This document shows, piece after piece, positions 1 to 27,082 of a stretch of 29,499 bases of DNA. A program made the translations under genes and the position numbers. Positions within the stretch are counted from its first letter, which is position 1; every line of letters starts with the position of its first letter. The notes under the pieces were generated by a model that did no database searches, had not been told where the DNA came from, and saw only the letters and a list, made by a program, of their open reading frames with translations. Origin of the DNA: a virus; IMG/VR virus record IMGVR_UViG_3300042924_001250, positions 1 to 29,499 of that record. The stretch is one strand, 5' to 3'.

Positions 1-2142
1 TAAACCAATTTCTACTAATGGCTTGACTCCAGTTGGCACAGGGTTAGGACCTAATAATGAGTCTATAGCAGCATCGGCAAGGGCGTGGCGAAGGCGAGTA
101 TTGTCCATCTCGTTCTCTGTTCCTTCTTTCATTACCTTGTTGACAGTCAGCTCTGGGATTGATTTAAAGAAGAAACTAGCTGATGTGTGCATTGGAAATA
201 ATAAACCATTGTCCATGCCAATAAACTTGGTAAGCGACTTAGGAATGTAGATATTACGCACTTTAGTTTGGTCATCTAGCTCTTCATAATCATCTTCTCC
301 GCCAACCGCCAATGAATAAAGAATGACGTAAAAAGAGAACAATGCTGCTGTATTACGTAGCTGTTTCAAGGCTGCTATCTTATCTTTTCCAGTGTATCCA
401 GACCCAGCCAAAGTCATTGCCAACACATCAATCTGCTGGGCATAGGCGTTCATAAAGGATACAGTCCTGGTCAAGAACTGGGCTAAACGGCCTGAACCAC
501 GTTTTTTAAAGTCAATAATGTTGTTTGCAGATATGAGAGCCTGCATTTGATCTCCGTTTGGAAATGCGCCGTCTTTACCTGTTTTTGTTTCAAGCAAGAC
601 ACGATTGTATATAGCTACACGCTGTGCCATATCTGAGGCATCGCCAATTTGATCTAATTTGCTTATTAGCTTATCTAGCTTGTTGTTTTCTAGTAAACCA
701 ATCTTTTGTTTTAGTTCCATTTCTGCAGTTCTAGCGTATGACTGAAAGCCACCTATTCCATAGGACTGTAAGAGTTCAACTATAGGATCACCGCCTTTTA
801 CTGCCTTTGCAAAACCAGCAAATACTTCGCCCCAGAGCTTGGTTGGATTCTTGACTCCAGAAACCAGCGCAGCTGTTGGGGCATCCATAAATAGCTGTCT
901 TACTTGGAACTCAGGCCATAGCGTAATACCTCTGCGTAAGCCGTTTGCCGCCATGCCAAGTATATTCATGCCAGGAATAGCAACGTCTTCCATACCTGTA
1001 ACAGACTCAGCAATCAGTGGATCTTTGATTTCAACAATAATTCTACGACCATTGCGTAAGATATTTAAACGAACTGCGCCATTCGTTGTAGATCCTTCTT
1101 TTGGAAAGACTGCTACCCTCCCTTTAATACGGGTTGCATAAGAATCAACTACACGGTTGGCGGCGTAGTTACGCATAGAGTTACGGGTAATGGTCATAAC
1201 GTTGTGAAGCATGTTATCCACAATGTCATCAATGTCCCTATTTACTTCGGTATCTTTAAATTTTTTCTCTTTGGCAATATTGGTATTGCTACGAACACTA
1301 CCCATAGTGGTATTGTCGTGAACGTCCTCCATGTCATCTTGGATGCGATACCAAGGAACATAATCTTTAATGCCTTTTAGCCGTTCTGCACGTTTCTTGC
1401 TAATGATCTTGCTGAACAACATCATGTCAATCATATTTTGATTTACTTTGGTCCAGTTCTCCATCATCGTGCGTAGCTCTGGATTTTTTTCATCTAATTT
1501 GCTGTAGAAATCTATTTGCTTTTCAGTCATGCGAACCTTCTTCTTCGCAATACCGATCTGCTTCAAGTCTTGTTTGGCATCTAAGAGGTCATTAAGAATT
1601 TGATTAAGCTGATCTTCCGCTAGTTCTGGCGCACGGCGCTGCGCATCTAAACTAGCAATCTCCTGTTCTATTTTCTGGTATTCATCATTGATGCTTTTAG
1701 AGCGCTTGGCCTCAAAGAACATTTGAATCATGTCGTTTGCGCGTTGCTCACCTTCTCTGGCTATCAACTTCGACTTTTCAATGATTACGTTAGCCATAGA
1801 GAATGGGCGTTTGATTGCTTGGAACATCTGGCTATCTATATTGAACGCCAATGATCCCTGTCTAATAACTTCTACGGCAATATTGCCAGCGTGTAAAGCA
1901 TTGGTAATAGCAATAGAAGCCATGGCTCTACCTTGACCATCACGCAGCTTGCCAGCAAAACCAGCTGCCTTTTGGTTAATTCTCTCCGCCAATTCCAAGC
2001 CAGCACCAAACCAGACGTTCTTATTACGAACATAGGTAATGCCTCGGAGTAGTTTGCCACTCATGGCTTTGTAGGCCATGGCTGGAGCATCTATGGTGTT
2101 GTCGTAGGCTTGTTTTGCCTGTTTTGCACCGCCAAGTAAAGT
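1..2142 (-). other. Helical C-terminal part of the giant protein with hydrophobic segment (LPD38-like?)
   Basis: Residues ~3740-4453. The stretch is mainly predicted helix, with charged coiled-coil-like runs around 3890-3990, the motif DYVPWYR at 3999, SDMAQRVAIYNRVL further on, and one strongly hydrophobic run at 4339-4352 (LFSFYVILYSLAVGG). DYVPWYR-type motifs and the C-terminal FLTRTVSFMNAYAQQID run resemble the large polyvalent-protein-associated domain I remember as LPD38. That name needs a profile search. A membrane-inserting role in ejection is possible but unproven. Confidence 0.5.
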
Positions 2143-5100
2143 GTCTTTTACTGTAGATGAAGCCCTAATTGGAGTGTTATTAAAGCCATCTTCTGCAAAT
2201 TGCTTATCAAATTCGTCTACTTTTTCTTCGGCATCTCTACTAAAGTACCCAACCCTGTTTTCCCGTTTTTGTTGCTGACGTTCTTTGTTAATCTCTGCTT
2301 GAGTTTTTACTTTTGCTGCTTCTAAAGATGGGAAGCTGACCGCACCCTTACGATCAAAATAGTTTTCGGCAAAGTTTAATAGTTCAACAATATCTCTATC
2401 AGAGAAGTTAATGGTAAATCCTTGGCTTCTTAACCAATTGCGAATGGCTTGAATAACACGCTGTATCAGCCCTATTTTGTACATGCCACGTTCTGCCATG
2501 TTTGCTACTATTTCTTTTGCCCTACGCTCTGGTGATAAGCCAGGCTGTGTTCGATCTACTTTGGCAGCTATCTCTTTAACAATGCGAGAAGTCTTTTCTA
2601 GACTTTGAACATTCTTAACCAAGTCTGCCATTAGCTTTGGTCCCAGCATTTCTTCTAAAAGGGCGTGACCAATAGCCTCATGCGCCAATACTTCCTGTAC
2701 TCTTTTTGCATTTGGTAAGTTATCTGCAATTAAGTAAATGGTTCTACCAGACAGCCACATTCCTTCTACGTCTGCTGGTGCAGTATTGTCTGGCAATTCA
2801 TCTACGGATTGAAGAACATTAATCGTAATTCCTTTTATAGGAACAACCTGTGCTTGAACAGCTTCAACCGTTTGTCCGCCTTCTGCAGGACCTCTTGACG
2901 CTAAACCTTTTTTACTTTCGCTATCGTCAAATTCAACTTTCATTACTTCACGAGCAAAAGTAGCGTTGTCTGCCTCTACTGTAGCTGGGTAATTTTTATG
3001 TAAGAACTTAACTAAAGCTATGATTTTTTCTGGATCTGTTAGTGAATCGCTACCAGACATCTCATATGCTTTGTTACCCTTTTTAGCAAGGCCACCTGGA
3101 ATCAAGTTTTTAATTGCTGGGGATGTTATTAATTTTTTTGGAACATCTCCTGCAATCGTTACTTTAAAACTATTTGGTCTATAAGTATCAATACGCAACT
3201 GCCATGATTGTGCTGAGCCACGCAATATAACGCCACCCATATTGCCTACGCTTTCATCATATTTTGGCAAATTAGGAAGCATTAAAGACTGCAAGCTATT
3301 ACTTAAATCTTTATATGATTCAAGTTGAGTGCTCTCATATTTTTTCTGTAATAGGGAGTCCCAAACGGCTAACAAATATTGAACCGCTGACTCTGGATTT
3401 CTTAACCGAATTGCTTGTTCGCTAATTGCGACTGGCACATACTTTGATGGCATGACTACGCCAGATATTGCTTCTTTAGTATTGTTTAATGTAAATTTAG
3501 CAATTTCACCGCCACTGGAATCAAACAACTGGGCAGCCCGTAATATGTTTCCTAGAGCTATGTATCTAGTGGTTCTTCCGCCAGTAACCGACTTCAGTGC
3601 AAACCAATCCTCTAAAGGAGGGTTTCTTGAGGGATAAGATCGTTCAATTGATGTGCCTTCTAATGTTGCTAAAGTGGGAGATATCCTACCTTCAGGAATA
3701 TTCCGTTTGATAATAATTTGGAAGTTAGATGGCGAATAAGGATTACCAGTCTTGGACTTTCCTATTCGTGTTTTATCTACCTTAATTCCTATAACTACAG
3801 CAGCAGATGGAACACTGTTAAGTATAAAAGAGTCAAATCCATTTCCAATGGCAAAAGTGTCACTCAATGCCAATAGAGTTCTATCTTTGCGTTCATTAAG
3901 TGTGGCAAATTGATTATCTAACGCTGTTTTTAGCTTGTTTAACTCTTCTATATCTTTTTCAGTAGCTGTTGGATTTTTTATATCCTCATCAATTTTTTGC
4001 TGTTTAAGAACAATTTGGTTTCTTACTTCAATGTAAACGCTGTTTAACTCTGTCTCTATTTCATTGACAACTTCCTGAGCTGTCCTTCCGTTCAATGCAA
4101 AACTGATGTCATCTTTTATGTTTTGGACAGTCGGTATTGAGCCGATAATATCCACGTTAAACTGTGCCATTACCACATCAGTTAAAAATGGATTGGAACT
4201 ATCTAAACCTTCTTCAATTAAGTTTTCTTTAATGATTTCAGCTTCTAACGGCAATACCCTTCTTTCTAATGCGTTAGTTCCTGTAGCATTTCTGAGATCT
4301 ATTGCCGCTATATAACTAGCTTCAATGGAATCAAAAAATTCTTTTTGGTCTACCGAAGACAGCAACCCTGCTGTACCTGAAGCCGTATGAGCCAAGTCCG
4401 ATCCAGCTGCGTCTGCAGGGTCTGAATATTGATTTACATTTAGAAATGCTTGTATGTCTGGGTGTTCATTCAAATATTCGGCTGTTGCTACATCGCCGTA
4501 CATATTAATAAAATCTACTCCATCAACCTTTGTACTGCTAGATCCACCAGAAGTATTTGACTTTAGGCTAGACAATTTTTTACGCAACATGGCTAAGATT
4601 CGTCTCTCAGCTGGTATTCCAGTTGCTAACATAGTGAATGAAGGCCATTCAACTTGACCTGTTCTATGTATTCTTCCTAATAACTGAATGAAAACACTAA
4701 TATCTCCATGCGGCTGCAGAACAATCATATGCCGTGGGCGTTGATCAAATGCATCTACTGAGGCATGCAACGAGATTCCAGTTGCGCCTGCGGAGTTAAT
4801 GATCAATACATCAATTGGTCCTGCCTTAGATTCCTCGCCATTTTGATATGACGAAATCATACTTGTACGACTAGGATTGTCTAAAGTTACATACTTTGGT
4901 ACGTCTCCAGAATAGTCTATTCCGTTTTTTCTACCTGTAATTTCTTTTACAACTAAGTTTCTTGCTTTTACCCCTTTAGGTGGCGTATCTCCAACGTGAG
5001 TTTTTCCATCAATAGTCCATACATATTTTTGTTCTAACTCTGTACGTATGTAATCAATTGGTGCTGCTGGCAAATCAGATTGGAAATTTTCTAACGCATT

Positions 5101-8100
5101 ATCAACGTTCTCATATCCAGCTCGGATACTTGGCGGCATCAAATCGTTAGGGATAAATACCACTTTATCCATTTCTTTGTCAACGGAAGATTTTAACGTT
5201 ACTTTTGTGGTGGATTTTACGGCACGGCGAATTAATGTTTGCCATCCAAAGTCAGGAATTTCATCGCCTTTTTTAATGTTGTTTTGTGCAACAAAATCTT
5301 CTAATGCGCTGCCATTGGTGCTTTGCAATCCAACAACTACTTTTTCATTGTTGTTAAGTTTGTCAACAACCATGTCTACAGCAGTTTGAGTTTTAGTCGA
5401 AAGTAGTAAAGAACCTATGTAGTTATGCACAACAGCCGTAAATGGAGTGCCTTTTACTTCTTTAAATGCTAGTGGTCCAACTTTACCTATATACGCTCCT
5501 GGAGGACCCAACTTAATTACTGCCTCTGTGCCAGCAGCAGTTTTTATCCATTCTTTTAAAGCTCGATCTGCATTGACTAAAGATCTTAGTATTTCTGTAA
5601 CTTTGTCAACTTCTCTAGTATCTCTGGCAGTGTTCTTATCATCAATAACAAAATCCATTGTTACGCCTTCATACGATCTTTCTCGGCGTATCATTGAGCC
5701 AGACTCTACCAACATCTCTGAAGATATTTGTTGCAACACATCGGTTTTAACGCCTTTACCAAACAAGGCTGTTAAGTCTTCTGGAGTATCTGCAGCGTAA
5801 CGTAAATTTGTATGAATATACAACGGCATGTTATCTGGACGTTTTGCAAACGTAGCAGATAAGTAAACAGTTGGCGGCGGCTTCCAACCTTCAGGCGTTT
5901 CTTCATCTTTGCCTAACAAATTTTCACCTGTTAACAAAGACATAAAGAAAGCATTTTGACCCATTGAGTCTTTGTCGCTTGGCGTACCAGCAGCGTTATG
6001 GGCTTCGTCCATAATTAATACAGCGTCTCCACTTGCGACTAAAGATGCTATTGCTGCTTGTCTTGCCGAAGATCCTGTGCCACCGTTTAACTGAGAATAT
6101 GAAGTAAATAAAACATCTTTACCAGGAGGTAATTTTTTATTTTTTGTAATGTATTCAACTAGTTTTTTGCTATCGCCTTTACTTTCATTGTTTTCAAAAA
6201 CTAATTCAGTTTTTCCTTCTCCAACGTCTTTAATTATTTTTGATTTAGAGTTAGTCATTGCTACTTGAATATCGCCGTGACCAATGTTCATTAAGTCTGC
6301 ATACATTGCGGTATACAAAGAATCACTTAGGGTAACAAAGACGGGAACTTTTCCTTGTTTCTTTGCCCAGACAATCATGGCGGCAGCTGTTCTACCTTTA
6401 CCTACGCCCGTATCGTCTCCAATAATGAAGCCTTTTCCAAGTTTATTAGCTTGGATTGCTAAACCTAATGCATCAATTTGATAGCCAGCAAGACCCTTTG
6501 CCATTTGCTGAATAGAGGAATAGCCTAGTTCTTTAGCAACAAATTCATCTATGTTGCCAACTTGGGCTTCTAAATTCTCTAACGCTGTATACGCATGTTG
6601 TGATTGAGCACGAGGTAGATAAATACCATCACTTGCAAATCTAGACTTACCTAAATAAACAACCCTTGATTCTGTATCAATTGGTTCGCTTTGTACTGGC
6701 GTTTGATTTTTAGGTCTTCTTTGTATTGTTGTTCTTAATTCATTAACATACGTTCTTAAATAATCTTTAATTGGATTACCAAATTTTTTAATTAGTAAAT
6801 CATAAACTGCTTGAATACGCTGTTTAGTATCTGTAATTTTTTGTCCAACAGCTTCCCAAACTTTTTGAATGATTGGTTTTACATTGGCGTACTCTTGATC
6901 GTCTTTTCTGGAATAAAGTCCGCTATTAGGATCATTGCTAGTATTTTTTTTATTTTGAGCTATGCGATCCATTGCTTCTTGAGCTTGCTTATCTAAACGC
7001 TCATCACTGTCTTCTGGGGTTGGCTCTTTATTTGTTATTTCTGGAGCCTTACCATTTAATGCGGCGTCTAATTCATCAAGCAAACTTTCAAGTCCTAAAC
7101 CTTCTAACTCTTTAGGAATGACTGTTTTGGTTTTAGCTGTTCCTTTAGGTGCTCTTGGACCGCTAACACCTTTAGGCGTTCCTTTTGGTGTTGTTGTTTC
7201 TGTTTTAAGTTTTTTACCTAAATTATTAAATATATCGTCTAACTCTAGGTCAGAAAGTCCTCCCAATTCAGAGCCTGGTTCTCCACCAGATATATCGCTT
7301 CCTTCAGCGGTGCTGGGTTCGCCACCTCTGGGTCCCCCTCGTTGATCTTCTCCGCTATCCTGCTGTTGTTCTGTATCACGAACTCCACCAGCTGTTCCAC
7401 GTCCGCTGGATTTGGGAGGTACGTTGACCCCTCCTGTCGGAGATAATGGTTCGCTGATGCCAGCGCCCTTTCCAGTCCGCCCCACTCCTCCGCTAGGTTC
7501 GCCATCTTGGAGATTATCGCCTGTTGGTACTGTTCCGCTTGGTCTATCTGCACCGCCAGCAGGTCCCCGTTGTTTTCTGGTACCCACCACGACTTTTTCG
7601 CTACGATCACTGGCTTGAACATATCTGCTCCATAATTCATCAAATGACGTTAGTCTGTTGACAACAAAGTCACTTGGGTAAACATTGTCCGTTTGACTTC
7701 TTCCAGCAATAATCAAGACACGTAACGGAAAAGACGCACCTTGTTTACGATATAAATTTCCAGCAAGTTCAAAATGGTCGGCAACATTGTAATTGCTGTA
7801 TAACCAATCCAAAAACACTTTATCTGTTGATGTAATAGTGTTTGGCTTTGTATGAGATCCCAGTAGCAAAACTGCTCTACCGTCATTTGCCATGGTCCTC
7901 AGTGATTCGGCAGCAATGAGTTGATCTGTCGTGCCAATCTTGTAATTTTGTCCTGTCCAAGACTTAACATCTACAGGCGATGGAAGTGATCCGAATGGAG
8001 GGTTTGCAAGAACTACGTCTACCTTTTGGTCTTGTATATCCTTTATTTTTACTAATGCATCCCCTTCAATTACATCTCCCATTTGCATTAACTGTAAATT

Positions 8101-11100
8101 GGTAACACGGTGTGGGTCTATTTCTATGGTTGTTACGTTTTTAGGGTTAGCTGTAACTACCAGCATTCCATTACCGCCAGTTGGATCTAATACTGTTGTA
8201 GTAGATTTAACACGAGATAACATGCCAGCAAGGTACGCAATCGGCAGTGGCGTAGAGTACGCATTATTGGATACGCTTAATACTGATTTAACATCTAATG
8301 AAGGTTGATTTTCGTATAAGCCAAGAATATGGTCATAAATAGCTTTGGTATCAGAGCCTTCTGCTCTCATATCGGTAATGACTTGGCTAATGAACCGTAC
8401 AGCTGCCGCCTCAAAATCTTCTTGAGTTTGTTTTAACTTAACTCGATCACCCTCAAAATCAGCAATCTTGTAATTGTCTATTTCCCTTTGGTTTTTGGCA
8501 GGGTTGAATCCCAATAACTCAGGGGATTGCAAGTACGCTTTGATGCCATATTCAGCTAGTTCACGGTTGTTTTTAGGCCACCACCCTTGACGCATGTGGT
8601 AGAACATTGACTCAGCCATCGAGCCATTTTTTATTTCGGGCCACTTAAACAAGCCCATCTCTTCCATAATGGCATCAATACGTTGTGCCATGTTAATAAT
8701 GCTTTGGTTCACCTTGCTAATTTGCATTAGTCGTGGTGTTAATATCTCTTCTTGTCCGTCACGCTCTTCTTTGGCTTGCTTTGCTTCTGCTTCTGTCTTA
8801 AACCAATTTAAACCGCCCAGCCGACCACGATCAAGGTAATACTGATCAACTACTACATACCCTAACTCTTCAACTTCAATAATTTGATTTTTTAGTTTGT
8901 ATGTTTTTATCTCTAAAGTTTTGGGATCAATTTGATCCAACATCTGTTGGTATATTGCATTAATTTGAGGGCGTTCTTTACCAGCTGGGTAAGTAGTACC
9001 AAGATAGCCATTCTTTTTAGTTACATACCCATCCGCTACTGTTGGCCCAACTAGGTATGGAGATCCGCCTTTTGCTAGATCAAATATCAAAGATTCAAAA
9101 GATCTAGATAATAGCTCTACTCCAGTGCTCCAATATGGCTTCTCTCTGCCTCTATCTAATGCCAAAGCATCTTTGTAATATTGCGTCTCAGTAAAAGAGT
9201 TAGGATAGATTTGAGCTTCGCCATACCGACTATTTGAAATAGCATCAAAGAATGCTTTTTTAGGCGGCGTATTACGGTTGTTTTCGCTATTCGCTGTATT
9301 GGTTAAGATTGAGCGTAAATTAGCTTCTACTTTTTCTACAGTGATCATTCTCTGTAAAGTAGATGCGGTATCGCTCATTAAAACTTTTCCGTTAGGAACT
9401 AATCTTAAATTCCAATCTAATGCGTGTTGCCATTCATGGCCTAGTGATCCATCACCTTTTGTCTTTGTTAAATTGATCTCATTCGCTCCAGGAACAAAAT
9501 GAGCAGCAGTTTTGCCACCACGTCCCTGTGCACCTACAGCTAGTTTTAACTTTTCATTTAAACCTAACATTTCTGGCGCTATACCAGCAATGTCTGCTAA
9601 GTCATACATTGCATCGTAAATTGCGTTTAGATGGGCTGTACGTTCTGATTGATTAACCCAGTTACCAAAATCAATACCGCCTGGTAAAAATTTAAATGTT
9701 TGCAAAAAGTCTTGCACATCTACATCTCGACCCTGCCGATGGTCACGCATACCACGGCGGATGATGTTACCTAACTCTGGTGGAGTTTCTGCGTCTTTCT
9801 TTACAATTCGATTTGTTTGATCAGTAGAATTTTCATCAAGACTAAACAAAGAATATAGTTTGGGAATAAATTGATTCAGCCTTACATCTTCAATTTTATT
9901 TTTTAGATCTATACCTTCTGGTGTATATATATCAGGTGTTCGGTCTGCATTCGTATCCTTTATATACTTTGTCATCAATGCATCATATAAAGGGGTAACG
10001 CCAGAATGCTCATTGAATACAGCTTGTAGGGTTTGTAAAGCCGTTACATAATCTACTAATAGTTTTCTAACTAACTCTTCTTTGCCATCATCTATGACTA
10101 ACTTGATGGCTTGACGATATCCTGCTTTGGAAGGAATGTAAGTATTAAACTGTCCGCCAGCTCTTGAAGGCAGATTGATTAACTCAAAAAGATAGTCTCC
10201 AGGTGACTTTATTTTAGATACTAGCCCCTCCTTAAACATCATTGCGCCAAATGTATTTTTTGGATTCGATTGAATATCTAATAGTTTTTTGGGGCTTGCC
10301 AGATCTAAGAGTTCAGTTACCAGCGCATCTTTTTGTTTTTCTGTAGCGTCTTTTGGTAACGGAGCAGCAGTAATCTGTCCTTTACGGTTGTTAAAAAACT
10401 CAGCCCCACCACCTTGTACACTCACTTTTTCTGGATTGTATAGTGCAGATATCGTAATTCTTTCAGGACCTACATAGGCTGCACTGTCTGTTGTTGCTGG
10501 AACCGCTCTGTCAGTAATGCGGAATTTGTTCTTAACTAACTGCTCTTCCATTTGACCTACAAGACTTAATTCAACTGGAATACGCAATAGCATCTCTTCT
10601 GGGAAGATGACTGGATGTAAATTTTCATCAACAGCATGACCGTATAAGAGTGTTGCAACCGCATCCGCATTGCCAGTTTCCATGGCAATCTTCATTGGGT
10701 TTGTATTTAGTTCAGCTATCTTCTTTTTTTGCTCTTCTTTCTTAGCTTTTTCTTCCTCGGCAGCCTTCTTTTCTTCTTCTTTGGCTTTTTTCTCTTCTTC
10801 TTTGGCTTTTTTTTCTTCTTCAGAAATTTCTACCTTTGGAGGTTTAGGTTCTTTGGGGCCAACTGGGGCTGCGGGACCTCCTGTAGGCTTCTCTTCTATT
10901 GGAACATCAATAGTCTTGGCTTTAATCTTGTATTGCCAAGGAGTTGTAAATGTTTTGTTTAAATACTCTTTAGCTTCTTGTTCGCTATTTAAATCAACTT
11001 TGTCTACACGACCATTGGCTTGGCTTCCTGTTTTATAAACAACAAACCAAATTTGCTTTTTCTTTGTTTTAACAGGAGCAGCTGGTCCACCCATAGGAAC

Positions 11101-13359
11101 AGCTGGACCGCCGACAGGTGCAGCTGGGCCTTCTGTAGGCTTTTCTGCCGCCGCTTCTGCAGCAGCTTTTTGCTCTTCCTGACGAGCTTTGTTAATGGCA
11201 ATCTGCTCTTCTTTAGTAGGTTCAATTGGAACTACCCTTACACTACCTCGATTAGTTTTTCCATCGTTTTCCCACTGCAAAGCCAATTTACCATCAGCAG
11301 AAGTTAACTGTTTCTTTTCAAAATCAAAAGTAGAATTTTTAAACCGTTCTTGATATTCATTAGTTAAAACAGATTTTGCTTCTTTTAATTCTTTTTCTAA
11401 TAAATTTTGATCGTTTCCAATAGCTTCAGCAGCAGCCTTAAATTGCTCTTCCATGCGAGCTGTGCTATCAGCAATCTTTTCTTCTATAGTGGGCGTTGGT
11501 AGTGCTGGTCCTCCAGTTGTAACAGCTTCTGGCTCAGTAGCTACTTCTTCTATAACAGGAGTTATAGCTGGTAAAGCTAAAAGCCTATCTGGGGGATACG
11601 CTAATAGCTCGTCTATATTGCGAATAAGGAATGGCTGCTCGTCCTGTTCTGGGAAAGCGTATATTTGTTCTCCATTAGAAAAGCGGGCTTCTGCATCCAG
11701 ACGTGACTCAATAGGCTCACCAAACTCTTGCAATTTGCCAATTAAATCTTCTACTTGTGCAACAGGTAGCGCAGCAGGAGTTTCTAAAACTGCAGGAGTT
11801 TCTAAAGTTTCTGGAGCTTTAGGACTTACTAGATCAGTAATTTCTTTGGCGAGCTCGGCTTGTCTTTCGTTTAAGAACTCTAATTCGCTTTCGCTGAGTA
11901 AGCGAGCAGGATCTGCTCTCCTACTTTCAATCATCTTAAGTTCGGCTTTAAGACTTTCTACTTGCTGTGCGGTTGCTGGGTCTAAACCTACTGTAGATAC
12001 CATAGCGGCTACTGGAGCTACTACGCTAGGAGGAATGGGAGAGGATGGCTCTAAAGCATCTTCTTCTGCCAAGGCATCTGGAGAGACTGGAGGTACAGGT
12101 GTTAATGTGGCATCTGTTGGGGGTACGGTAGGGGGGGTAGGGGGTAGGGGGGATATGGTGGGTGGTATGGTTTTTGCTGCTTCTTCCGCATCTTCCTTGG
12201 TCTTTGCTACCGCACCACGATACGCGCCAGGTGCTGCACCACCCATAGCGCCCAATACAAAGTTGGCAAACGACTCTTCGCCAATCTCTTTAATAACTGT
12301 TTTGTTAATACCTAAGTCTTTGGCAATACCTTCTAAGAACTCTTGCGTTCCTTCTTCTAGCGAACCAGCAGCTGTTCCAAGCGCAATACGCCCTAAACGA
12401 CTCTTGACTGGGCCTGTAATCAGCTTGTCAAACTGACCAGTAATTAACTTACCTGTGATAACGCCACCAAATGCGGCTACCGAACCTTGAAGCTGGGCTG
12501 CGTACTCAGCTGCTTTATCTATAACGACTTTACGAGCTTCGGCTGGATCTACGCCGTCTGAAATCATTTTTTTGAAATACGGGCTGGACTGCATTAGCTG
12601 CTCATCGCTGAGTTTTTTAACATACTCGGTAGCGTCTTGAACTGCCTCACCAGCACCCATACCAAAACCAACCGTACCAACGGCTTTGGTATTGCCTTTG
12701 GTCATTACCGCTGTACCAATGATAGGAACTAAAGAGCCAAGAACCTGTGATCCTTGTAAGGCATAGCCCGTAAAAGATGGGTTTTTACCAAAAGAAAGGT
12801 TTTCTACACTGCGATTTTGGATAGATTCAAGAATATTTCCTTCAACCTGTGAGTCGGCAATTGCCTTCTGTCCTGCTGCGGAAACGCTTTCTCGCAAATC
12901 TTCTGATACTTTTTTACCTGCATCAGCAAGCTGGGATAGCCCAGGAACGCGTGGAATGTTTGAAATAGCACGATCTAGCGTTATTTCATTCTGCTTTTGC
13001 TTTTCTTGTTGCTCTTCAAAAGACTCACCAGTTGCCTTCTTAACAAAGGCACGGGCTGTATTTGTCAGTAATTGTGCTGGTCCTGTACGCACCAACTCTT
13101 GCGCAAATGTTAGCGGACCAATCTTTTCAACGGGGGCTATGCCCTGTTGCTCTACTACTTGTCTTGGGATATTACGGGCAGCTGACTCTAAACCCATTGG
13201 TATAGCTGCGGTGGGGCCAACAACCCCAGACGCAAACATTTTTGCTGGGTCTAATAGCTGACTTGGCTGCTCTTCTGGAACAAGGGGATCAGACTCCCAT
13301 GGCGTTGAGGTTTCAGGAGGCTTGATAATTTCATCTTTTTCCCAAAAGTTTTTTGCCAT
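1..13359 (-). CDS. Giant polyvalent protein: zincin, N6-adenine methyltransferase, Strawberry-notch helicase, second zincin (partial, 3' end outside window)
   Basis: The frame is open from an ATG at 13359, preceded by AGAAGG, to the window edge: 4,453 codons with no stop found. Key motifs at 9438, 8187, 8004, 6420, 6009, 4656 and 2682 all fall in this frame. Order: glycine-zipper/hydrophobic N-terminus (residues ~198-245), proline-rich linker (~400-415), Lys/Glu-rich helix (~840-875), LPD1-like zincin (H1308, E1309, H1312), N6-adenine methyltransferase (D1725, N1786), Gly/Pro/Ser linker (~1905-2040), Sno-type helicase (K2321, D2451, R2899), second zincin-like motif (H3560) and a helical C-terminal part. 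This is the architecture called polyvalent proteins by Iyer and Aravind. These are found in phages and conjugative elements and are thought to enter the host with the DNA. Position after the ejection-type genes fits that; delivery and function are inference. The frame was read by eye, so a rare missed stop is possible. The true end and any further domains lie beyond base 1. Confidence 0.93.
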   Translation of the reverse strand, partial: MAKNFWEKDEIIKPPETSTPWESDPLVPEEQPSQLLDPAKMFASGVVGPTAAIPMGLESAARNIPRQVVEQQGIAPVEKIGPLTFAQELVRTGPAQLLTNTARAFVKKATGESFEEQQEKQKQNEITLDRAISNIPRVPGLSQLADAGKKVSEDLRESVSAAGQKAIADSQVEGNILESIQNRSVENLSFGKNPSFTGYALQGSQVLGSLVPIIGTAVMTKGNTKAVGTVGFGMGAGEAVQDATEYVKKLSDEQLMQSSPYFKKMISDGVDPAEARKVVIDKAAEYAAQLQGSVAAFGGVITGKLITGQFDKLITGPVKSRLGRIALGTAAGSLEEGTQEFLEGIAKDLGINKTVIKEIGEESFANFVLGAMGGAAPGAYRGAVAKTKEDAEEAAKTIPPTISPLPPTPPTVPPTDATLTPVPPVSPDALAEEDALEPSSPIPPSVVAPVAAMVSTVGLDPATAQQVESLKAELKMIESRRADPARLLSESELEFLNERQAELAKEITDLVSPKAPETLETPAVLETPAALPVAQVEDLIGKLQEFGEPIESRLDAEARFSNGEQIYAFPEQDEQPFLIRNIDELLAYPPDRLLALPAITPVIEEVATEPEAVTTGGPALPTPTIEEKIADSTARMEEQFKAAAEAIGNDQNLLEKELKEAKSVLTNEYQERFKNSTFDFEKKQLTSADGKLALQWENDGKTNRGSVRVVPIEPTKEEQIAINKARQEEQKAAAEAAAEKPTEGPAAPVGGPAVPMGGPAAPVKTKKKQIWFVVYKTGSQANGRVDKVDLNSEQEAKEYLNKTFTTPWQYKIKAKTIDVPIEEKPTGGPAAPVGPKEPKPPKVEISEEEKKAKEEEKKAKEEEKKAAEEEKAKKEEQKKKIAELNTNPMKIAMETGNADAVATLLYGHAVDENLHPVIFPEEMLLRIPVELSLVGQMEEQLVKNKFRITDRAVPATTDSAAYVGPERITISALYNPEKVSVQGGGAEFFNNRKGQITAAPLPKDATEKQKDALVTELLDLASPKKLLDIQSNPKNTFGAMMFKEGLVSKIKSPGDYLFELINLPSRAGGQFNTYIPSKAGYRQAIKLVIDDGKEELVRKLLVDYVTALQTLQAVFNEHSGVTPLYDALMTKYIKDTNADRTPDIYTPEGIDLKNKIEDVRLNQFIPKLYSLFSLDENSTDQTNRIVKKDAETPPELGNIIRRGMRDHRQGRDVDVQDFLQTFKFLPGGIDFGNWVNQSERTAHLNAIYDAMYDLADIAGIAPEMLGLNEKLKLAVGAQGRGGKTAAHFVPGANEINLTKTKGDGSLGHEWQHALDWNLRLVPNGKVLMSDTASTLQRMITVEKVEANLRSILTNTANSENNRNTPPKKAFFDAISNSRYGEAQIYPNSFTETQYYKDALALDRGREKPYWSTGVELLSRSFESLIFDLAKGGSPYLVGPTVADGYVTKKNGYLGTTYPAGKERPQINAIYQQMLDQIDPKTLEIKTYKLKNQIIEVEELGYVVVDQYYLDRGRLGGLNWFKTEAEAKQAKEERDGQEEILTPRLMQISKVNQSIINMAQRIDAIMEEMGLFKWPEIKNGSMAESMFYHMRQGWWPKNNRELAEYGIKAYLQSPELLGFNPAKNQREIDNYKIADFEGDRVKLKQTQEDFEAAAVRFISQVITDMRAEGSDTKAIYDHILGLYENQPSLDVKSVLSVSNNAYSTPLPIAYLAGMLSRVKSTTTVLDPTGGNGMLVVTANPKNVTTIEIDPHRVTNLQLMQMGDVIEGDALVKIKDIQDQKVDVVLANPPFGSLPSPVDVKSWTGQNYKIGTTDQLIAAESLRTMANDGRAVLLLGSHTKPNTITSTDKVFLDWLYSNYNVADHFELAGNLYRKQGASFPLRVLIIAGRSQTDNVYPSDFVVNRLTSFDELWSRYVQASDRSEKVVVGTRKQRGPAGGADRPSGTVPTGDNLQDGEPSGGVGRTGKGAGISEPLSPTGGVNVPPKSSGRGTAGGVRDTEQQQDSGEDQRGGPRGGEPSTAEGSDISGGEPGSELGGLSDLELDDIFNNLGKKLKTETTTPKGTPKGVSGPRAPKGTAKTKTVIPKELEGLGLESLLDELDAALNGKAPEITNKEPTPEDSDERLDKQAQEAMDRIAQNKKNTSNDPNSGLYSRKDDQEYANVKPIIQKVWEAVGQKITDTKQRIQAVYDLLIKKFGNPIKDYLRTYVNELRTTIQRRPKNQTPVQSEPIDTESRVVYLGKSRFASDGIYLPRAQSQHAYTALENLEAQVGNIDEFVAKELGYSSIQQMAKGLAGYQIDALGLAIQANKLGKGFIIGDDTGVGKGRTAAAMIVWAKKQGKVPVFVTLSDSLYTAMYADLMNIGHGDIQVAMTNSKSKIIKDVGEGKTELVFENNESKGDSKKLVEYITKNKKLPPGKDVLFTSYSQLNGGTGSSARQAAIASLVASGDAVLIMDEAHNAAGTPSDKDSMGQNAFFMSLLTGENLLGKDEETPEGWKPPPTVYLSATFAKRPDNMPLYIHTNLRYAADTPEDLTALFGKGVKTDVLQQISSEMLVESGSMIRRERSYEGVTMDFVIDDKNTARDTREVDKVTEILRSLVNADRALKEWIKTAAGTEAVIKLGPPGAYIGKVGPLAFKEVKGTPFTAVVHNYIGSLLLSTKTQTAVDMVVDKLNNNEKVVVGLQSTNGSALEDFVAQNNIKKGDEIPDFGWQTLIRRAVKSTTKVTLKSSVDKEMDKVVFIPNDLMPPSIRAGYENVDNALENFQSDLPAAPIDYIRTELEQKYVWTIDGKTHVGDTPPKGVKARNLVVKEITGRKNGIDYSGDVPKYVTLDNPSRTSMISSYQNGEESKAGPIDVLIINSAGATGISLHASVDAFDQRPRHMIVLQPHGDISVFIQLLGRIHRTGQVEWPSFTMLATGIPAERRILAMLRKKLSSLKSNTSGGSSSTKVDGVDFINMYGDVATAEYLNEHPDIQAFLNVNQYSDPADAAGSDLAHTASGTAGLLSSVDQKEFFDSIEASYIAAIDLRNATGTNALERRVLPLEAEIIKENLIEEGLDSSNPFLTDVVMAQFNVDIIGSIPTVQNIKDDISFALNGRTAQEVVNEIETELNSVYIEVRNQIVLKQQKIDEDIKNPTATEKDIEELNKLKTALDNQFATLNERKDRTLLALSDTFAIGNGFDSFILNSVPSAAVVIGIKVDKTRIGKSKTGNPYSPSNFQIIIKRNIPEGRISPTLATLEGTSIERSYPSRNPPLEDWFALKSVTGGRTTRYIALGNILRAAQLFDSSGGEIAKFTLNNTKEAISGVVMPSKYVPVAISEQAIRLRNPESAVQYLLAVWDSLLQKKYESTQLESYKDLSNSLQSLMLPNLPKYDESVGNMGGVILRGSAQSWQLRIDTYRPNSFKVTIAGDVPKKLITSPAIKNLIPGGLAKKGNKAYEMSGSDSLTDPEKIIALVKFLHKNYPATVEADNATFAREVMKVEFDDSESKKGLASRGPAEGGQTVEAVQAQVVPIKGITINVLQSVDELPDNTAPADVEGMWLSGRTIYLIADNLPNAKRVQEVLAHEAIGHALLEEMLGPKLMADLVKNVQSLEKTSRIVKEIAAKVDRTQPGLSPERRAKEIVANMAERGMYKIGLIQRVIQAIRNWLRSQGFTINFSDRDIVELLNFAENYFDRKGAVSFPSLEAAKVKTQAEINKERQQQKRENRVGYFSRDAEEKVDEFDKQFAEDGFNNTPIRASSTVKDTLLGGAKQAKQAYDNTIDAPAMAYKAMSGKLLRGITYVRNKNVWFGAGLELAERINQKAAGFAGKLRDGQGRAMASIAITNALHAGNIAVEVIRQGSLAFNIDSQMFQAIKRPFSMANVIIEKSKLIAREGEQRANDMIQMFFEAKRSKSINDEYQKIEQEIASLDAQRRAPELAEDQLNQILNDLLDAKQDLKQIGIAKKKVRMTEKQIDFYSKLDEKNPELRTMMENWTKVNQNMIDMMLFSKIISKKRAERLKGIKDYVPWYRIQDDMEDVHDNTTMGSVRSNTNIAKEKKFKDTEVNRDIDDIVDNMLHNVMTITRNSMRNYAANRVVDSYATRIKGRVAVFPKEGSTTNGAVRLNILRNGRRIIVEIKDPLIAESVTGMEDVAIPGMNILGMAANGLRRGITLWPEFQVRQLFMDAPTAALVSGVKNPTKLWGEVFAGFAKAVKGGDPIVELLQSYGIGGFQSYARTAEMELKQKIGLLENNKLDKLISKLDQIGDASDMAQRVAIYNRVLLETKTGKDGAFPNGDQMQALISANNIIDFKKRGSGRLAQFLTRTVSFMNAYAQQIDVLAMTLAGSGYTGKDKIAALKQLRNTAALFSFYVILYSLAVGGEDDYEELDDQTKVRNIYIPKSLTKFIGMDNGLLFPMHTSASFFFKSIPELTVNKVMKEGTENEMDNTRLRHALADAAIDSLLGPNPVPTGVKPLVEIGL
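2440..2772 (-). other. Second zincin-like motif (HEAIGH) of the giant protein
   Basis: Residues ~3530-3640. VLAHEAIGHALLEEMLG starts its histidine pair at H3560, giving HExxxH rather than HExxH. A helical stretch follows, with NWLRSQGFTINFSDRDIVEL. From memory, the same HEAxGH plus WLRxxGF arrangement recurs in zincin-like parts of other phage polyvalent proteins. Because the spacing differs from a standard zinc helix, catalytic activity is less certain than for the first zincin. Confidence 0.6.
4480..6552 (-). other. Strawberry-notch (Sno)-type SF2 helicase module of the giant protein
   Basis: Residues ~2270-2960. The Walker A segment is IIGDDTGVGKGRTAAAMIVW (K2321). It differs from a classic SNF2 GxGKT but matches the G-GVGKGRT form of the Sno family. 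The Walker B box is LIMDEAH (D2451-H2454), followed by motif III LSATFAK. The C-terminal half has SAGATGISLHA and motif VI QLLGRIHRTGQ (ending at 2902), then a TGIPAERR stretch like the Sno tail. All ATPase residues are present. It probably translocates on or remodels nucleic acid on entry, perhaps coupled to the methyltransferase upstream; that coupling is inference. Confidence 0.87.
7245..7622 (-). CDS. Possible overlapping gene in the methyltransferase-helicase linker (speculative)
   Basis: An ORF lies in the +1 frame relative to the giant gene. A TTG or ATG could start it at 7643 or 7640. The best start is the ATG at 7622, preceded by GGAG with a five-base spacer, giving 125 residues and a stop at 7245. 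The product looks protein-like: AVQIDQAEQYQQAIISKM, then VEQLVEFVIQNNSRIAEKI, amphipathic helices rich in Glu, Ala, Asn and Leu. The main frame here is a Gly/Pro/Ser/Arg linker. Caution: a G-rich main frame automatically yields GNG codons (Glu, Ala, Val, Gly) in the +1 frame, so chance is a real alternative. No family was recognised. Confidence 0.25.
   Translation of the reverse strand: MFKPVIVAKKSWWVPENNGDLLAVQIDQAEQYQQAIISKMANLAEEWGGLERALASANHYLRQEGSTYLPNPADVEQLVEFVIQNNSRIAEKINEGDPEVANPAPLKEAIYLVENQALNWEDFLT
7660..8277 (-). other. N6-adenine DNA methyltransferase domain of the giant protein
   Basis: Residues ~1695-1900. The SAM-binding motif I is DPTGGNGML starting at D1725, and the catalytic motif IV is ANPPFG with N1786. 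Both are intact and typical of gamma-type N6-adenine methyltransferases. The acidic residue after motif I (IEID) fits SAM ribose binding. No separate target-recognition domain was recognised, as is common in polyvalent proteins. The likely role is methylating the incoming or replicating phage DNA against host restriction; that role is inference. Confidence 0.88.
9070..9792 (-). other. LPD1-like zincin (metallopeptidase) domain of the giant protein
   Basis: Residues ~1190-1430 hold the run INLTKTKGDGSLGHEWQHAL. H1308, E1309 and H1312 form a canonical HExxH zinc site, and ELLSRSFES with E1415 could supply the third ligand. The upstream stretch (GRDVDVQDFLQTF, then FGNWVNQSERTAHLN) matches what I remember of the domain that precedes HEWxHALD in phage and plasmid polyvalent proteins. 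The zinc residues are intact, so activity is plausible. The substrate is unknown: self-processing of the giant chain and cleavage of a host protein are both possible. Confidence 0.85.
12119..12152 (+). other. Canonical G-quadruplex motif inside the giant gene
   Basis: Four G-tracts of 5, 7, 5 and 6 bases (12119-12123, 12131-12137, 12140-12144, 12147-12152) are separated by loops of 7, 2 and 2 bases, satisfying G3+N1-7. The G-rich strand is the template strand, so the mRNA is C-rich here and encodes a Pro/Thr linker. Folding would have to occur in DNA. Confidence 0.7.
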
Positions 13360-13379: not shown

Positions 13380-16010
13380 TTATGATTTCGTGCGTATTTG
13401 ACCATTTGGATCAATATACCGTTCACCTGATTTTAACTTATTGTATTGTTCTTGTGTTGTAATTTTTTGTGGAACGCCTTTTGCTGGGGCTCCTTTTCCT
13501 GTTGGCTTTACATCAGTTTCTGCTGGCATTTTTAGTTTAGGAATGTCCAGTTTATTCAAAAGATCTGGAGACATGCTGTTACGAGCAATCTCTTGTGCGT
13601 CTCTTTCTAATTGATCTGGATTATCTTTGTACTTTTTATACAAAGTGCCGCCTGGCTTGGCTCGTTTGGAAAGGTCTGTTCTAGCGTTGCTGAGCAGAGT
13701 GTTAAACGAGTTTTGAGCACGGACATAATCTGCGTTTGATTGACTATTTGCGGTAGCTGCACGGCTTGCCGCAGTAGCCTCAGCTGATGCCCTACGACCT
13801 AACATCTGACCTAGGGCGGTTTGTTGTGATCCCAATAGGGCAGATTCACGGGCAAACTGTGACTTCTCACGCTCACCAGCCTGCTGTAATAGAAGTTTAT
13901 TAGCATCCTCAACTTCACGCTGTGATCCTGCATAGCTCTTCAATCCTTCCATACCACCCAATGCTGCGTTAGTTAGGCCGTATTGGGACGTTCCAGCCAT
14001 CGTTCCTAAGCCTGCCATAGCCAAAGCACGATATGGTGCTGTTTCTTGGCTTTTTGCGAGACGGGCTTCAATCTGGGCTTCCCTTGCTTTAGCAGCTGCA
14101 AACGGGTCTGTAGCTTCCATAGCCTGTTGACGGCGCTTAATATCAGCCATCATCATGTCTTCGTACTCAGAATACTTGTCCGTTACCTTACTGCCTTTGG
14201 CAAACGCCACAATACCGCCACCTGCCATTTGCTCCATAGGAACCATATTGCCTGTAGGAATTGCGGTAATTCCTGCCATGATCTGGTCTGACTCTGGATT
14301 CATCTCCATGCGTCTACGAACCATTAGCTCTTTCTCAACCATATCCGACTCTAACGGAGTAAGACCTGGATTCTCCAAAAGCTGCTCTAACTGCTCAGTC
14401 TTCATCATTTTGATGTCGCCGCCAGTCGCATAACCGATTTGACCGCCCTTAGCGTATCCTTTGCCTACCATACCGCCCTTGGCCTTGAAGCCGCCTGACA
14501 TGCCGTAGATACCAAGAGCTGACATACCTAGACCGCCCAGCTGCGAACCCATGCTTGGAGGTGCTGTGTACATACTTTGTGCCGACTGAGACAACGGTAG
14601 ACCACGGAGCATATCGGACTGGAAAGCCAGTTGCTGATATGGGTAGTTGCGCTGCTTGAGGAAGTCTTGATAAGCCAAGTCCAGACCTTGCTGTGCTTGA
14701 GCCTGTTGAATTGCTCCAACCTTTTGCTGTTCTGCACTGATTGCTTGCTCTTGACCGAACTGAGTTTGACCGAGCTGACCGAGAGTGCTCGCGGCTTGAG
14801 TAGCCTGACCCAGACCTTGAAGTCCAAGTTGACCAGCGCCAGTAGCAGCCTGGACGCCTTGAAGTCCATAGCCTGCGCCTTGCATACCTTGTGCTGTACC
14901 CTGAAGTCCCAATTGTCCTGCGGCTTGCTGTGCCCCAACGCCTTGTAATCCAGCCTGTGCGCCCTGAATACCTTGACCGTATAAGCTACCAGCTTGTCCC
15001 AATCCTTGTAAACCAGCTTGTTGACCTTGCATAGCAGTGCCAAGTCCTCTTAAACCTGTCTCAGCACCCTGCATACCCAAACCAAGACCACCATAGCCTG
15101 CTTGCAAACCTTGAAGGCCTAACTGTGCGCCAAACTGTTGTTGACGCTGGGCATCTTCAAACGCCTTCTGTGTGCCAGTAGCTTGGATGCCTGCTAATTG
15201 ATTGCCTAAACTACGCCGCCCTTCCGCTTCTACAATAGCTTGACGACTACCACCAAAAGCTCCTTTGCCTACTGCTTGAGCTTTTTGCGCTTGTAAGCCT
15301 ATGTCAAAGTCACGAATAGCCTGAGACTTTTGATAGTCCACTGCATTTTGCATATAAGGAGACATGTATGCTTGAACAGCGTTTGGATCAGTAGCTTGAC
15401 GAGCAAACTGTTCGCCAGCACCAAAGCCTTGTTCAGCCGCCTGCACTCCACGACCACCAAAACCTGCGCCCATAGCGCCATATCCAAGACCGCCCATACC
15501 AATGTCAGCAGCTTGTTGTCCGAATTGTTGTGCAGTAGGAGCCATTCCAGCTGCTTGAGCACCAAATCCAGCACCCATGCCACCATACAGACCAGCTTGA
15601 CGTGCAGTTTGTTGTGCCCTTTGTAACGCTTGTTGCGCACCTAGGCCGCCATATAGTTGTCCTGTTGCGCCATAACCTAATGCCTCTTGTCCTAATTGCC
15701 CTGCCTGACCTTGCATTCCAATAGCTCCAAGACCAGCTTGACCTGCTAAATTGGTTGCAGAACCAAGTTGACTGGCTGGCGCTTGATTAAACACATTAGC
15801 AAAAGCGTTCTTTTGATTTTGATTAAAATCAGCAATGCGTTGACCGCCATAGTTTTGATATGGATTCTGATTAATGTCAGTCAAAGCCTCCGACTTACCA
15901 AGCATCGTCTCTACATATGGACGTGCGTATTCAGGTATCGAGGTATTCGTAACTGTCTGACTACTTGGTGCTGGTGCTGGCTGTCCGCCTCCGCCTCCGC
16001 CTTTACCCAT
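13380..16010 (-). CDS. Gly/Gln-rich virion protein, probable internal/ejection protein (876 aa)
   Basis: ATG at 16010 follows GGAG, two bases after the upstream stop. The protein opens with a run of six glycines (residues 4-9) and PAPAPSS. Residues ~80-200 are Gly/Ala/Gln-rich. Residues ~205-295 form a less repetitive block with SPYMQNAVDYQKSQA and AFGGSRQAIVEAEGRRS. Residues ~296-416 are GLQGLG/GLQGVG repeats. FLKQRNYPYQQLAFQSDMLR follows at ~450-469. The C-terminal third has KGGMVGKGYAKGGQIGY and then helical charged sequence. I recall similar blocks in structural proteins of environmental podoviruses. Its place just before the giant gene matches T7 gp15, so a DNA-ejection role is likely. 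It ends 20 bases before the giant gene's start. No enzymatic motif was seen. Confidence 0.8.
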   Translation of the reverse strand: MGKGGGGGGQPAPAPSSQTVTNTSIPEYARPYVETMLGKSEALTDINQNPYQNYGGQRIADFNQNQKNAFANVFNQAPASQLGSATNLAGQAGLGAIGMQGQAGQLGQEALGYGATGQLYGGLGAQQALQRAQQTARQAGLYGGMGAGFGAQAAGMAPTAQQFGQQAADIGMGGLGYGAMGAGFGGRGVQAAEQGFGAGEQFARQATDPNAVQAYMSPYMQNAVDYQKSQAIRDFDIGLQAQKAQAVGKGAFGGSRQAIVEAEGRRSLGNQLAGIQATGTQKAFEDAQRQQQFGAQLGLQGLQAGYGGLGLGMQGAETGLRGLGTAMQGQQAGLQGLGQAGSLYGQGIQGAQAGLQGVGAQQAAGQLGLQGTAQGMQGAGYGLQGVQAATGAGQLGLQGLGQATQAASTLGQLGQTQFGQEQAISAEQQKVGAIQQAQAQQGLDLAYQDFLKQRNYPYQQLAFQSDMLRGLPLSQSAQSMYTAPPSMGSQLGGLGMSALGIYGMSGGFKAKGGMVGKGYAKGGQIGYATGGDIKMMKTEQLEQLLENPGLTPLESDMVEKELMVRRRMEMNPESDQIMAGITAIPTGNMVPMEQMAGGGIVAFAKGSKVTDKYSEYEDMMMADIKRRQQAMEATDPFAAAKAREAQIEARLAKSQETAPYRALAMAGLGTMAGTSQYGLTNAALGGMEGLKSYAGSQREVEDANKLLLQQAGEREKSQFARESALLGSQQTALGQMLGRRASAEATAASRAATANSQSNADYVRAQNSFNTLLSNARTDLSKRAKPGGTLYKKYKDNPDQLERDAQEIARNSMSPDLLNKLDIPKLKMPAETDVKPTGKGAPAKGVPQKITTQEQYNKLKSGERYIDPNGQIRTKS
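14763..15125 (-). repeat. Degenerate GLQG(L/V) tandem repeats in the 876-residue protein
   Basis: Residues ~296-416 repeat short units such as AGLQGLGQA, AGLQGVGAQ, GQLGLQG and YGLQGVQAA about every 8-16 residues. The DNA shows recurring TTGNAGTCC-like words on the plus strand. The repeats favour long shadow reading frames in both directions, which should not be called genes. Confidence 0.75.
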
Positions 16011-25985: not shown

Positions 25986-26546
25986 CTATACAAACCAAGT
26001 AATAATGGAATACCGTGTACCGCTAGTCACGGGCATAATTTCGTGTGGATACATAAAATTTGAAGGGAACATAATGCACGACCCTTTTTTAAGTTTGTAC
26101 TTTAGTTCGCGATTAAAAAAAGCAAACTCACCGCCTTCATAGTCGTCATTTAAAATAAACGAACAAGACACTGCTCTGGGGCGCCCTTTAAAAGAATCTG
26201 TATGTTGCACATAAAATTGCCCCTCTTTATACCGAAGTAATTCATAACCAGAGTCTTCTTCTATTTTACATAAAGGAAACCTATCGTTATATTTTTGTAT
26301 TGCTAACGCAGCTGAAGCAAATACGTCTTTGTCTAATTTTTCTCTATTATTTTGATTTTTTTCAATAACATGTGGGTACGAAATAATAATTGTATCAGCG
26401 GATCTAATACTATTTTCTACGCGGCCCGAACCAACAACAGTCTGTTCCCACTCATTTTCGTTGTTAAATTCTTGGATAATAGAGTCGCATAAAACGTCAG
26501 TAATAACGTCATTAAACACAACGATATAATCATTAATGTTTTTCAT
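25986..26546 (-). CDS. 2-oxoglutarate/Fe(II)-dependent oxygenase, P4H/PiuC-like (186 aa)
   Basis: The ATG overlaps the preceding stop (ATGA). The iron triad is complete: H115 and D117 in YVQHTD and H168 in YPHEIMPV. R178 in GTRYSIITWF is in the place of the 2-oxoglutarate-binding arginine. Between them YEGGEFAFF gives the usual strand-turn-strand of prolyl-4-hydroxylase-type oxygenases. It should hydroxylate a substrate using O2 and 2-oxoglutarate in the host cytoplasm. The substrate is unknown; candidates are a fibre protein, a sugar or a nucleobase. Its pairing with another oxygenase between fibre genes suggests modification of the tail, which is inference. Confidence 0.87.
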   Translation of the reverse strand: MKNINDYIVVFNDVITDVLCDSIIQEFNNENEWEQTVVGSGRVENSIRSADTIIISYPHVIEKNQNNREKLDKDVFASAALAIQKYNDRFPLCKIEEDSGYELLRYKEGQFYVQHTDSFKGRPRAVSCSFILNDDYEGGEFAFFNRELKYKLKKGSCIMFPSNFMYPHEIMPVTSGTRYSIITWFV

Positions 26547-27082
26547 TGTTTTTTATCAAAATATGCCCAGGCATTCGGGCCATTAGATTGGACATAGTGA
26601 AGAAAAACTTGGCTGTAATTTTGCCCAGTAAAAGGTTTATCTCGCCAATGGTCGGCGGTGCAACCCAAATACAACATAGCGTCACCGACATTTAAATTTA
26701 AAGTAACTTCTTCAGATGATGGTTTTTGGATACCAATATCCCAGTCAGCATCACCGCCTATGTGTACAGTCAAACTTATTTCGCAAGCTGGCCTATCTCG
26801 ATGTCGAGTAAGTATTTCGCCGTTTTTATATATCCTAGCGTAAGTATAGGTCGGAAAAACAGGCTCTTCTATTAAAGCATTTACGTGATTTATTTTTTGA
26901 CACAGCAATTCTAAAAAGGGTTTAAAGTTATAAATAGCTGGAGATTTTGGAGCTTGAGGATCTTGAGTATATTGCCCACTAGCCTCTAACTCATAAAACT
27001 GTTTTTGTAGTGTTTGAGCATGCTCCTGACTAATAAAGTTAGGAACAAATAAAAAATTATTTTGCTCAAGTTGGGTGTTCAC
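26543..27082 (-). CDS. Second 2-oxoglutarate/Fe(II) oxygenase-like protein (179 aa)
   Basis: The start is GTG at 27082, directly after the upstream TAA. Iron ligands H94 and D96 (LTRHRDRP) and H145 (ADHWRDKPF) are in the right order and spacing. VFPTYTYARIYKNG precedes them, and NVGDAMLYLG provides the strand before the last histidine. The usual basic residue for 2-oxoglutarate ~10 residues after the last histidine is not obvious (Q154 and Q158 are nearby). This resembles phage oxygenases ending QVFLHYV, but it belongs to a different subfamily from its neighbour. Substrate unknown. Coupling by overlapping start and stop suggests the two enzymes are made together. Confidence 0.78.
   Translation of the reverse strand: MNTQLEQNNFLFVPNFISQEHAQTLQKQFYELEASGQYTQDPQAPKSPAIYNFKPFLELLCQKINHVNALIEEPVFPTYTYARIYKNGEILTRHRDRPACEISLTVHIGGDADWDIGIQKPSSEEVTLNLNVGDAMLYLGCTADHWRDKPFTGQNYSQVFLHYVQSNGPNAWAYFDKKQ

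Follow-up and report, generated by a model that had tools for sequence, protein, structure and literature searches.

We analyzed a virus contig, IMG/VR record IMGVR_UViG_3300042924_001250, over its whole length of 29,499 bp (positions 1 to 29,499; hereafter the window). Its minus strand is occupied from 13359 to the contig edge by a giant open reading frame (ORF) that joins zincin, adenine-methyltransferase (MTase) and Sno-type helicase domains in one chain, and a second, putative gene lies inside it, in the +1 frame of the MTase–Sno linker. The elements at the center of the analysis are as follows.

1..13359, minus strand: giant polyvalent-protein ORF, 4,453 codons in the window and ~4,660 amino acids (aa) in full, with the stop placed from relatives
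7245..7622, minus strand: putative nested gene, +1 frame, 125 codons plus stop, product MFKPVIVAKKSWWVPEN...ALNWEDFLT, isoelectric point (pI) 4.4; recognized by synonymous constraint, the nonsynonymous-to-synonymous ratio (pN/pS) and conserved ends
7628..7631, minus strand: putative GGAG Shine–Dalgarno sequence of the nested gene, 5 nucleotides (nt) before its ATG (GGAG-N5-ATG)

The giant frame and the +1 frame within it

The giant ORF is real. Translation of the window from the ATG at 13359 down to position 1 gave 4,453 codons with zero stops, in agreement with the initial annotation, which had read a single uninterrupted minus-strand frame here from the letters alone. The frame lacks a stop because the contig ends there; the stop sought beyond the contig was found in two relatives (L002 and L003), 206–207 codons past the window's edge, and the full-length protein would therefore have ~4,660 aa. 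Intact giant ORFs of 4,544–5,168 aa are present on more than 12 other contigs, and the IMG/VR relatives show 71–93% helicase identity to the window, with two more at ~50%. Against close relatives, the ratio of nonsynonymous to synonymous substitution rates (dN/dS) was ~0.06–0.3 in the domains and ~0.4–0.5 in the linker at aa 421–820. In one relative (L041, 34-13276), the giant ORF is broken into 3,144 and 1,290 aa overlapping in another frame, probably because of a sequencing frameshift error.

The most unusual feature of the locus is the putative gene nested in the giant one, which was absent from the initial annotation. Synonymous change in the giant frame dipped at codons 1906–2030, to 0.01–0.03 compared with a mean of 0.25 among six close relatives, to 0.03–0.17 compared with 0.47 in a second clade, and to 0.07–0.19 compared with 0.56 between the clades. 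The dip coincides with the +1-frame ORF, and near-zero giant-frame synonymous change was found only there. The start, the GGAG and the stop of this ORF are identical in position in the 22 sequences listed (two of them duplicates), including two whose helicases are ~50% identical, and no other alternative ORF was common to the nine giants compared. Over the shared DNA, pN/pS was 0.14–0.36 in the small frame and 1.2–3.5 in the giant frame, and in 152 of 155 pairs the small-frame proteins resembled each other more closely than the giant-frame peptides did, although the pairs are non-independent and pN/pS in overlapping frames is approximate. The giant-frame peptide in the overlap is a low-complexity, glycine-rich linker; its frame nevertheless has no stop in any relative, and recoding with gene-wide codon usage never left it open in 20,000 trials per sequence. 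Together, these results describe a conserved second-frame ORF, apparently under purifying selection and with a putative start of its own, as expected of an overlapping gene.

Junction ORFs in other MTase–Sno fusions

The breadth of this arrangement was assessed in more distant MTase–Sno proteins, found by Sno similarity, with both domains in one ORF (101 loci). A junction ORF was defined as a +1-frame ORF of at least 75 codons with an ATG start at most 60 codons from the MTase end, start codons thus being assigned by rule. Such an ORF was present in 97 of the 101 fusions, compared with 0 in the third frame and 7.2% at random centers in the same genes (0.4% with a Shine–Dalgarno sequence of at least 5 nt). 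Since the loci include near-duplicates, we also counted clusters at 70% Sno identity, finding a junction ORF in every member of 37 of 41. In two of the four exceptions to the rule, the +1 frame is open all the same, for 103 codons in L147 and 151 in L210. In L042, L148 and L155, for which a longest-open-frame rule picks another ORF, the nested ORF was nonetheless found at the junction on reading. In P1 DarB, the archetype of MTase–helicase proteins, a +1 stretch is open before the helicase (codons 647–823), a usable start not having been demonstrated. The separate MTase and Sno genes of Bacteroidales are without the nested ORF.

Selection was similar in four other families (24 pairs): pN/pS was 0.15–0.67 in the nested frame and mostly above 1 in the host frame (0.57–10.3, the extreme of 10.3 coming from a near-identical pair), and host-frame synonymous change was usually well under that in the flanking Sno part. 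The predicted nested proteins are ~125–130 aa long and acidic, with a median pI of 4.5 and 94% below 5.5. They had no credible match in Pfam, PHROGs, NCBIfam or the PDB, and tblastn against phage and plasmid records returned Bacteroides phage BS-TP4 itself or chance-level matches only. BS-TP4 was the only isolate record found with the nested ORF, which lies at about 10044-10388 of PQ571277 and has no annotated feature there. Profile comparison of the window's family with the main family (probability 70%, E 4e-5) suggests that the two are related; for most other pairs of families the link was weaker.

Two further patterns were seen in the locus set. In L171/L173 and L205/L206, the nested gene and Sno are near identical and the MTase part is strongly divergent, as if recombination had broken near the nested-gene start. 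L056-L105, mostly Bacteroidales contigs, comprise ~45 cellular loci in which an N6-MTase gene stands beside a ~1,300-aa Sno gene, often in several copies per genome and with no nested ORF.

Modules of the giant protein and neighboring genes

Profile and motif searches divided the giant protein and its surroundings as follows.

12163..13044, minus strand: N-terminal module, aa 106–399 (phrog_2206, 6e-14; Achromobacter phage CF418P1, 8e-15 with shuffled decoys)
10900..12162, minus strand: variable proline/alanine/glutamate-rich linker, aa 400–820 (low identity and gaps among relatives; dN/dS 0.4–0.5)
8929..9741, minus strand: zincin 1 with LPD1, aa 1207–1477, HEWQH at aa 1308 (Pfam LPD1, 2e-10; phrog_616, 2e-40; motif conserved)
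7645..8292, minus strand: adenine-MTase domain, aa 1690–1905, DPTGGNG, and NPPF at aa 1786 (PHROG MTase profile, 8e-8; motifs)
5647..6444, minus strand: Sno helicase N-terminal ATPase (AAA_34), aa 2306–2571 (Pfam, 3e-16)
4477..4950, minus strand: Sno helicase C-terminal domain (Helicase_C_4), aa 2804–2961 (Pfam, 2e-19)
2290..2799, minus strand: zincin 2, aa 3521–3690, HEAIGH (HEXXXH form) at aa 3560 (motif conserved; CF418P1 similarity, 8e-22)
1..1512, minus strand: C-terminal module, aa ~3950–4453, with a truncated LPD38 from ~aa 4353 (CF418P1 and other giant phage proteins; LPD38 in L048 and L034)
13380..16010, minus strand: upstream gene, 876 aa, candidate DNA-ejection protein, 20 nt before the giant gene (phrog_4287, 0.0012)

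By its sequence, the giant is a phage-type polyvalent protein, running from an N4 virion RNA polymerase (vRNAP)-like N terminus through zincin/LPD1, MTase, Sno and the HEXXXH zincin to LPD38: several domains of unlike activity stand in one chain, of a size class often above 2,000 aa. The zincin, the adenine MTase, the Sno-type helicase and the second zincin-like motif named in the initial annotation were all borne out by these searches. Its membrane-prone tail was not, since no 19-residue stretch exceeded a Kyte–Doolittle mean of 1.6 and the tail is instead the LPD38 module. It had called the theme of polyvalent proteins known and this order and size worth describing; neither the size nor the general architecture is unique (relatives reach 5,168 aa and BS-TP4 5,391 aa), and the giant is a further example of an already known class.

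The N-terminal module resembles the N-terminal part of the N4-type vRNAP family; the similarity is limited to this part, and Pfam and PHROGs scans of the giant found no T7-like RNA polymerase domain. The Sno part carries GDDTGVGKG, MDEAHNA and GRIHRTGQ. These and the other catalytic motifs (HEWQH/HEWHH, NPPF and HEA(I/V)GH) are preserved in nearly all relatives, and the HEXXXH form of zincin 2 is kept in all those aligned. The Sno-type MTase–helicase dyad consists of an adenine MTase bearing NPP(Y/F) and, after it, a Strawberry-notch superfamily 2 (SF2) ATPase, as found here; LPD36, expected N-terminal to the MTase in this dyad, had no Pfam match in the giant at E up to 1. LPD38 scored above its Pfam cut-off near the C terminus of L048 (2e-19), L034, L042 and L050, and about half of the window's LPD38 module falls beyond the contig edge. 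In L022/L042/L043, NPPF is replaced by HPPA with the remaining MTase fold retained, and the MTase of this lineage may therefore be inactive or altered.

Along the protein, identity outlines a conserved core (aa ~820–3690) and exchangeable ends: some relatives have 12–40% identity over the N-terminal 820 residues, and one clade ~20% over the C-terminal 750. The simplest reading of this exchange would be two delivery ends around a variable payload, an arrangement similar to that of N4 vRNAP. The giant of L050 (5,168 aa) has two extra domains after the Sno helicase and before LPD38, namely LPD37 and an ADP-ribosyltransferase (ART-PolyVal). A conserved region of ~560 residues (aa 2961–3520; 2800-4479, minus strand) separates Sno from zincin 2; it had no family match in the window and resembles a region of BS-TP4 (1e-12). 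A Toc75 POTRA match at zincin 2 was rejected as lying under the Pfam family cut-off. AlphaFold models of aa 905–2010 and 2955–4150 were discarded, their mean predicted local distance difference test scores being 50 and 48; Foldseek with the aa 905–2010 model gave weak MTase matches, none at E < 0.001.

The upstream gene lies 1–54 nt from the giant gene in the relatives tested. Its match to phrog_4287 is weak in the window, and the homologue in L027 matches the same profile at 6.8e-19; the product is probably a DNA-ejection protein. The giant is the final gene of a late operon with tail fiber, lysis and ejection genes, the setting of a late virion gene. The portal of one relative was closest to those of Pelagibacter phages HTVC023P and HTVC027P and to portals from cyanophage and Roseobacter phage. 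Among the tail genes, two neighboring genes at 25986-27082 received conflicting PHROGs labels (2-oxoglutarate (2OG)-Fe(II) oxygenase, ferrochelatase and DNA endonuclease V). For an antisense ORF of 327 aa at 11453-12436, neither a family match nor an equivalent in the compared relatives was found.

A proposed two-protein locus and its known counterparts

Together, these results lead us to propose, with a probability of about 0.85, that the locus encodes a virion-packaged polyvalent giant and, from its MTase–helicase linker, a separate small +1-frame protein. The comparative evidence for the overlapping gene is strong, and its location is both unexpected and widespread. Judging from gene order, the operon would be transcribed late, and ribosomes on the same mRNA would make the giant protein and also, starting internally at the Shine–Dalgarno sequence and ATG, the nested protein. 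The giant would be packaged and ejected, as its N terminus, LPD38 and the neighboring gene suggest, with the core as payload and the terminal modules serving these steps. The Sno motor may then travel on the incoming DNA, the MTase may mark that DNA against restriction, and the zincins may cleave the chain into working pieces; both the protection and the cleavage are suggested by PMC5512222 and by DarB as described there. Where the two frames overlap, selection would act mainly on the small protein, the giant frame staying open as a glycine-rich linker.

Somewhat beyond an even chance, in our estimate, phage Sno-type MTase–helicase genes in general carry an old, conserved +1 linker gene whose acidic product of ~130 aa is a required partner, the linker existing mainly for its sake. 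Because of its fixed position and acidity, we guess that the partner is one of MTase–Sno; that it is made late, binds this module and holds it inactive or packageable until the new cell is a tentative idea to which we give less than an even chance.

Several observations weigh against the proposal of two proteins. Permutation of local codons left the giant frame open in 0.7–41% of cases. Chance openness of the +1 frame, taken alone, is not improbable at some GC-rich loci. Two fused loci (L093 and L111) are without the nested ORF, and the nested families are mostly unlinkable to one another by sequence. As for the N terminus of the giant, phmmer against the PDB found no N4 match and our own N-terminal profile failed to reach the ZX86 polymerase, so that the evidence for an N4 link consists of the PHROG profile, a weak ZX86 match by tblastn, and CF418P1.

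The +1 frame might also be entered by programmed frameshifting, giving a zincin–MTase protein with an alternative tail and no start of its own, and the position of the ORF right behind the MTase domain would make such a truncated product sensible. However, 47 of the 97 loci have an in-frame stop immediately before the nested ATG, which would end translation by any ribosome that had shifted frame further upstream; in the window, the gap between the last stop of the +1 frame and the ATG is only 27 nt; and most starts follow a Shine–Dalgarno sequence (85 junction ORFs), often as AAGGAG-N7-ATG. We regard frameshifting as very unlikely. If constraint acted instead on the DNA or RNA, as a packaging signal, replication origin or RNA structure, with the open frame a by-product, the near invariance of giant-frame synonymous sites over ~375 nt would follow. 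Yet changes are concentrated at third positions of +1 codons, as the pN/pS contrast reflects, and this recurs in other families; the start, Shine–Dalgarno sequence and stop persist despite wide DNA divergence, and there was no Rfam match, making this account scarcely credible. That the giant gene in fact comprises two genes, read through the small one by accident, could be argued from the separate neighboring MTase and Sno genes of Bacteroidales contigs and from the low complexity and pN/pS above 1 of the giant frame in the overlap. It is highly improbable given the openness of that frame in all relatives and its failure to survive recoding, the GC content at third positions of the window's nested codons (0.72 compared with 0.30 gene-wide, consistent with avoidance of giant-frame stops), and the MTase–Sno fusions also found in BS-TP4 and MD-2021a.

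The fate of the giant is a separate matter. It may not be ejected at all, being made late or early and acting only in the producing cell, for example by modifying replicated phage DNA. PTXU04 gp25, a shorter LPD38 polyvalent protein needed for Escherichia coli infection, is the LPD38 protein with genetic data and is known only as required for infection (PMC11879866), and none of the four bands assigned by fingerprinting of PTXU04 virions was gp25 (PMC6563267). We consider this unlikely. The ejected protector and processor of the phage genome suggested by the initial annotation is supported in part, agreeing with the published prediction for the class (PMC5512222), the N4-like N terminus, the phage-only LPD38, the ejection gene upstream and the last place in the late operon; packaging, ejection, cleavage and activity of the giant are predictions.

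Polyvalent proteins have been catalogued as single chains. If the proposal of two proteins is true, a predicted anti-restriction machine has a conserved companion that protein-level surveys have overlooked, since its ORF sits entirely within a larger one and ordinary annotation tends to omit such ORFs. The locus would also be a dual-coding example for which the independent sequences suffice to quantify selection in each frame, and the swapping of ends and payloads among giants offers a map on which delivery and function can be told apart.

Iyer et al. 2017 (PMC5512222) predict that polyvalent proteins protect and process the incoming genome and describe their HEXXXH peptidase form. The giant is like the Strawberry-notch MTase–helicase dyad of that paper in its MTase and SF2/Sno ATPase, its zincins including the HEXXXH form, LPD1, LPD38 and late-gene context; unlike those proteins, which the paper presents as single chains with no mention, in the sections consulted, of a second-frame linker gene, its linker appears to be dual-coding. 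As in overprinted viral genes (reviewed in PMC8227390), one DNA stretch is under conflicting constraint from two frames, but the host gene here is a polyvalent protein, and no second gene nested in such a protein was found in the literature searched. The N4 virion RNA polymerase has a lipid-binding N terminus, a polymerase and an HExxH-bearing C-terminal part (PMC12633501). The giant is like N4 gp50 and its Schitoviridae relatives in being a giant late protein (predicted to be in the virion) with a similar N terminus, an HExxH-type domain near the C-terminal part and adjoining ejection genes, and differs in having no RNA polymerase domain, a zincin–MTase–Sno payload and an LPD38 C terminus. 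The CF418P1 giant (WNO49116.1, 2,684 aa) shares the N terminus, zincin 2 and the LPD38 C-terminal part (2e-17), but has InPase and LPD3 where the window giant has MTase–Sno. BS-TP4 gp3 (5,391 aa) differs in its additional InPase and ddrB-ParB and in a nested protein unlinkable by sequence to the window's; it shares the MTase–Sno core, LPD38 and an unannotated nested +1 ORF at the same junction, and the nested gene is testable in this cultured phage.
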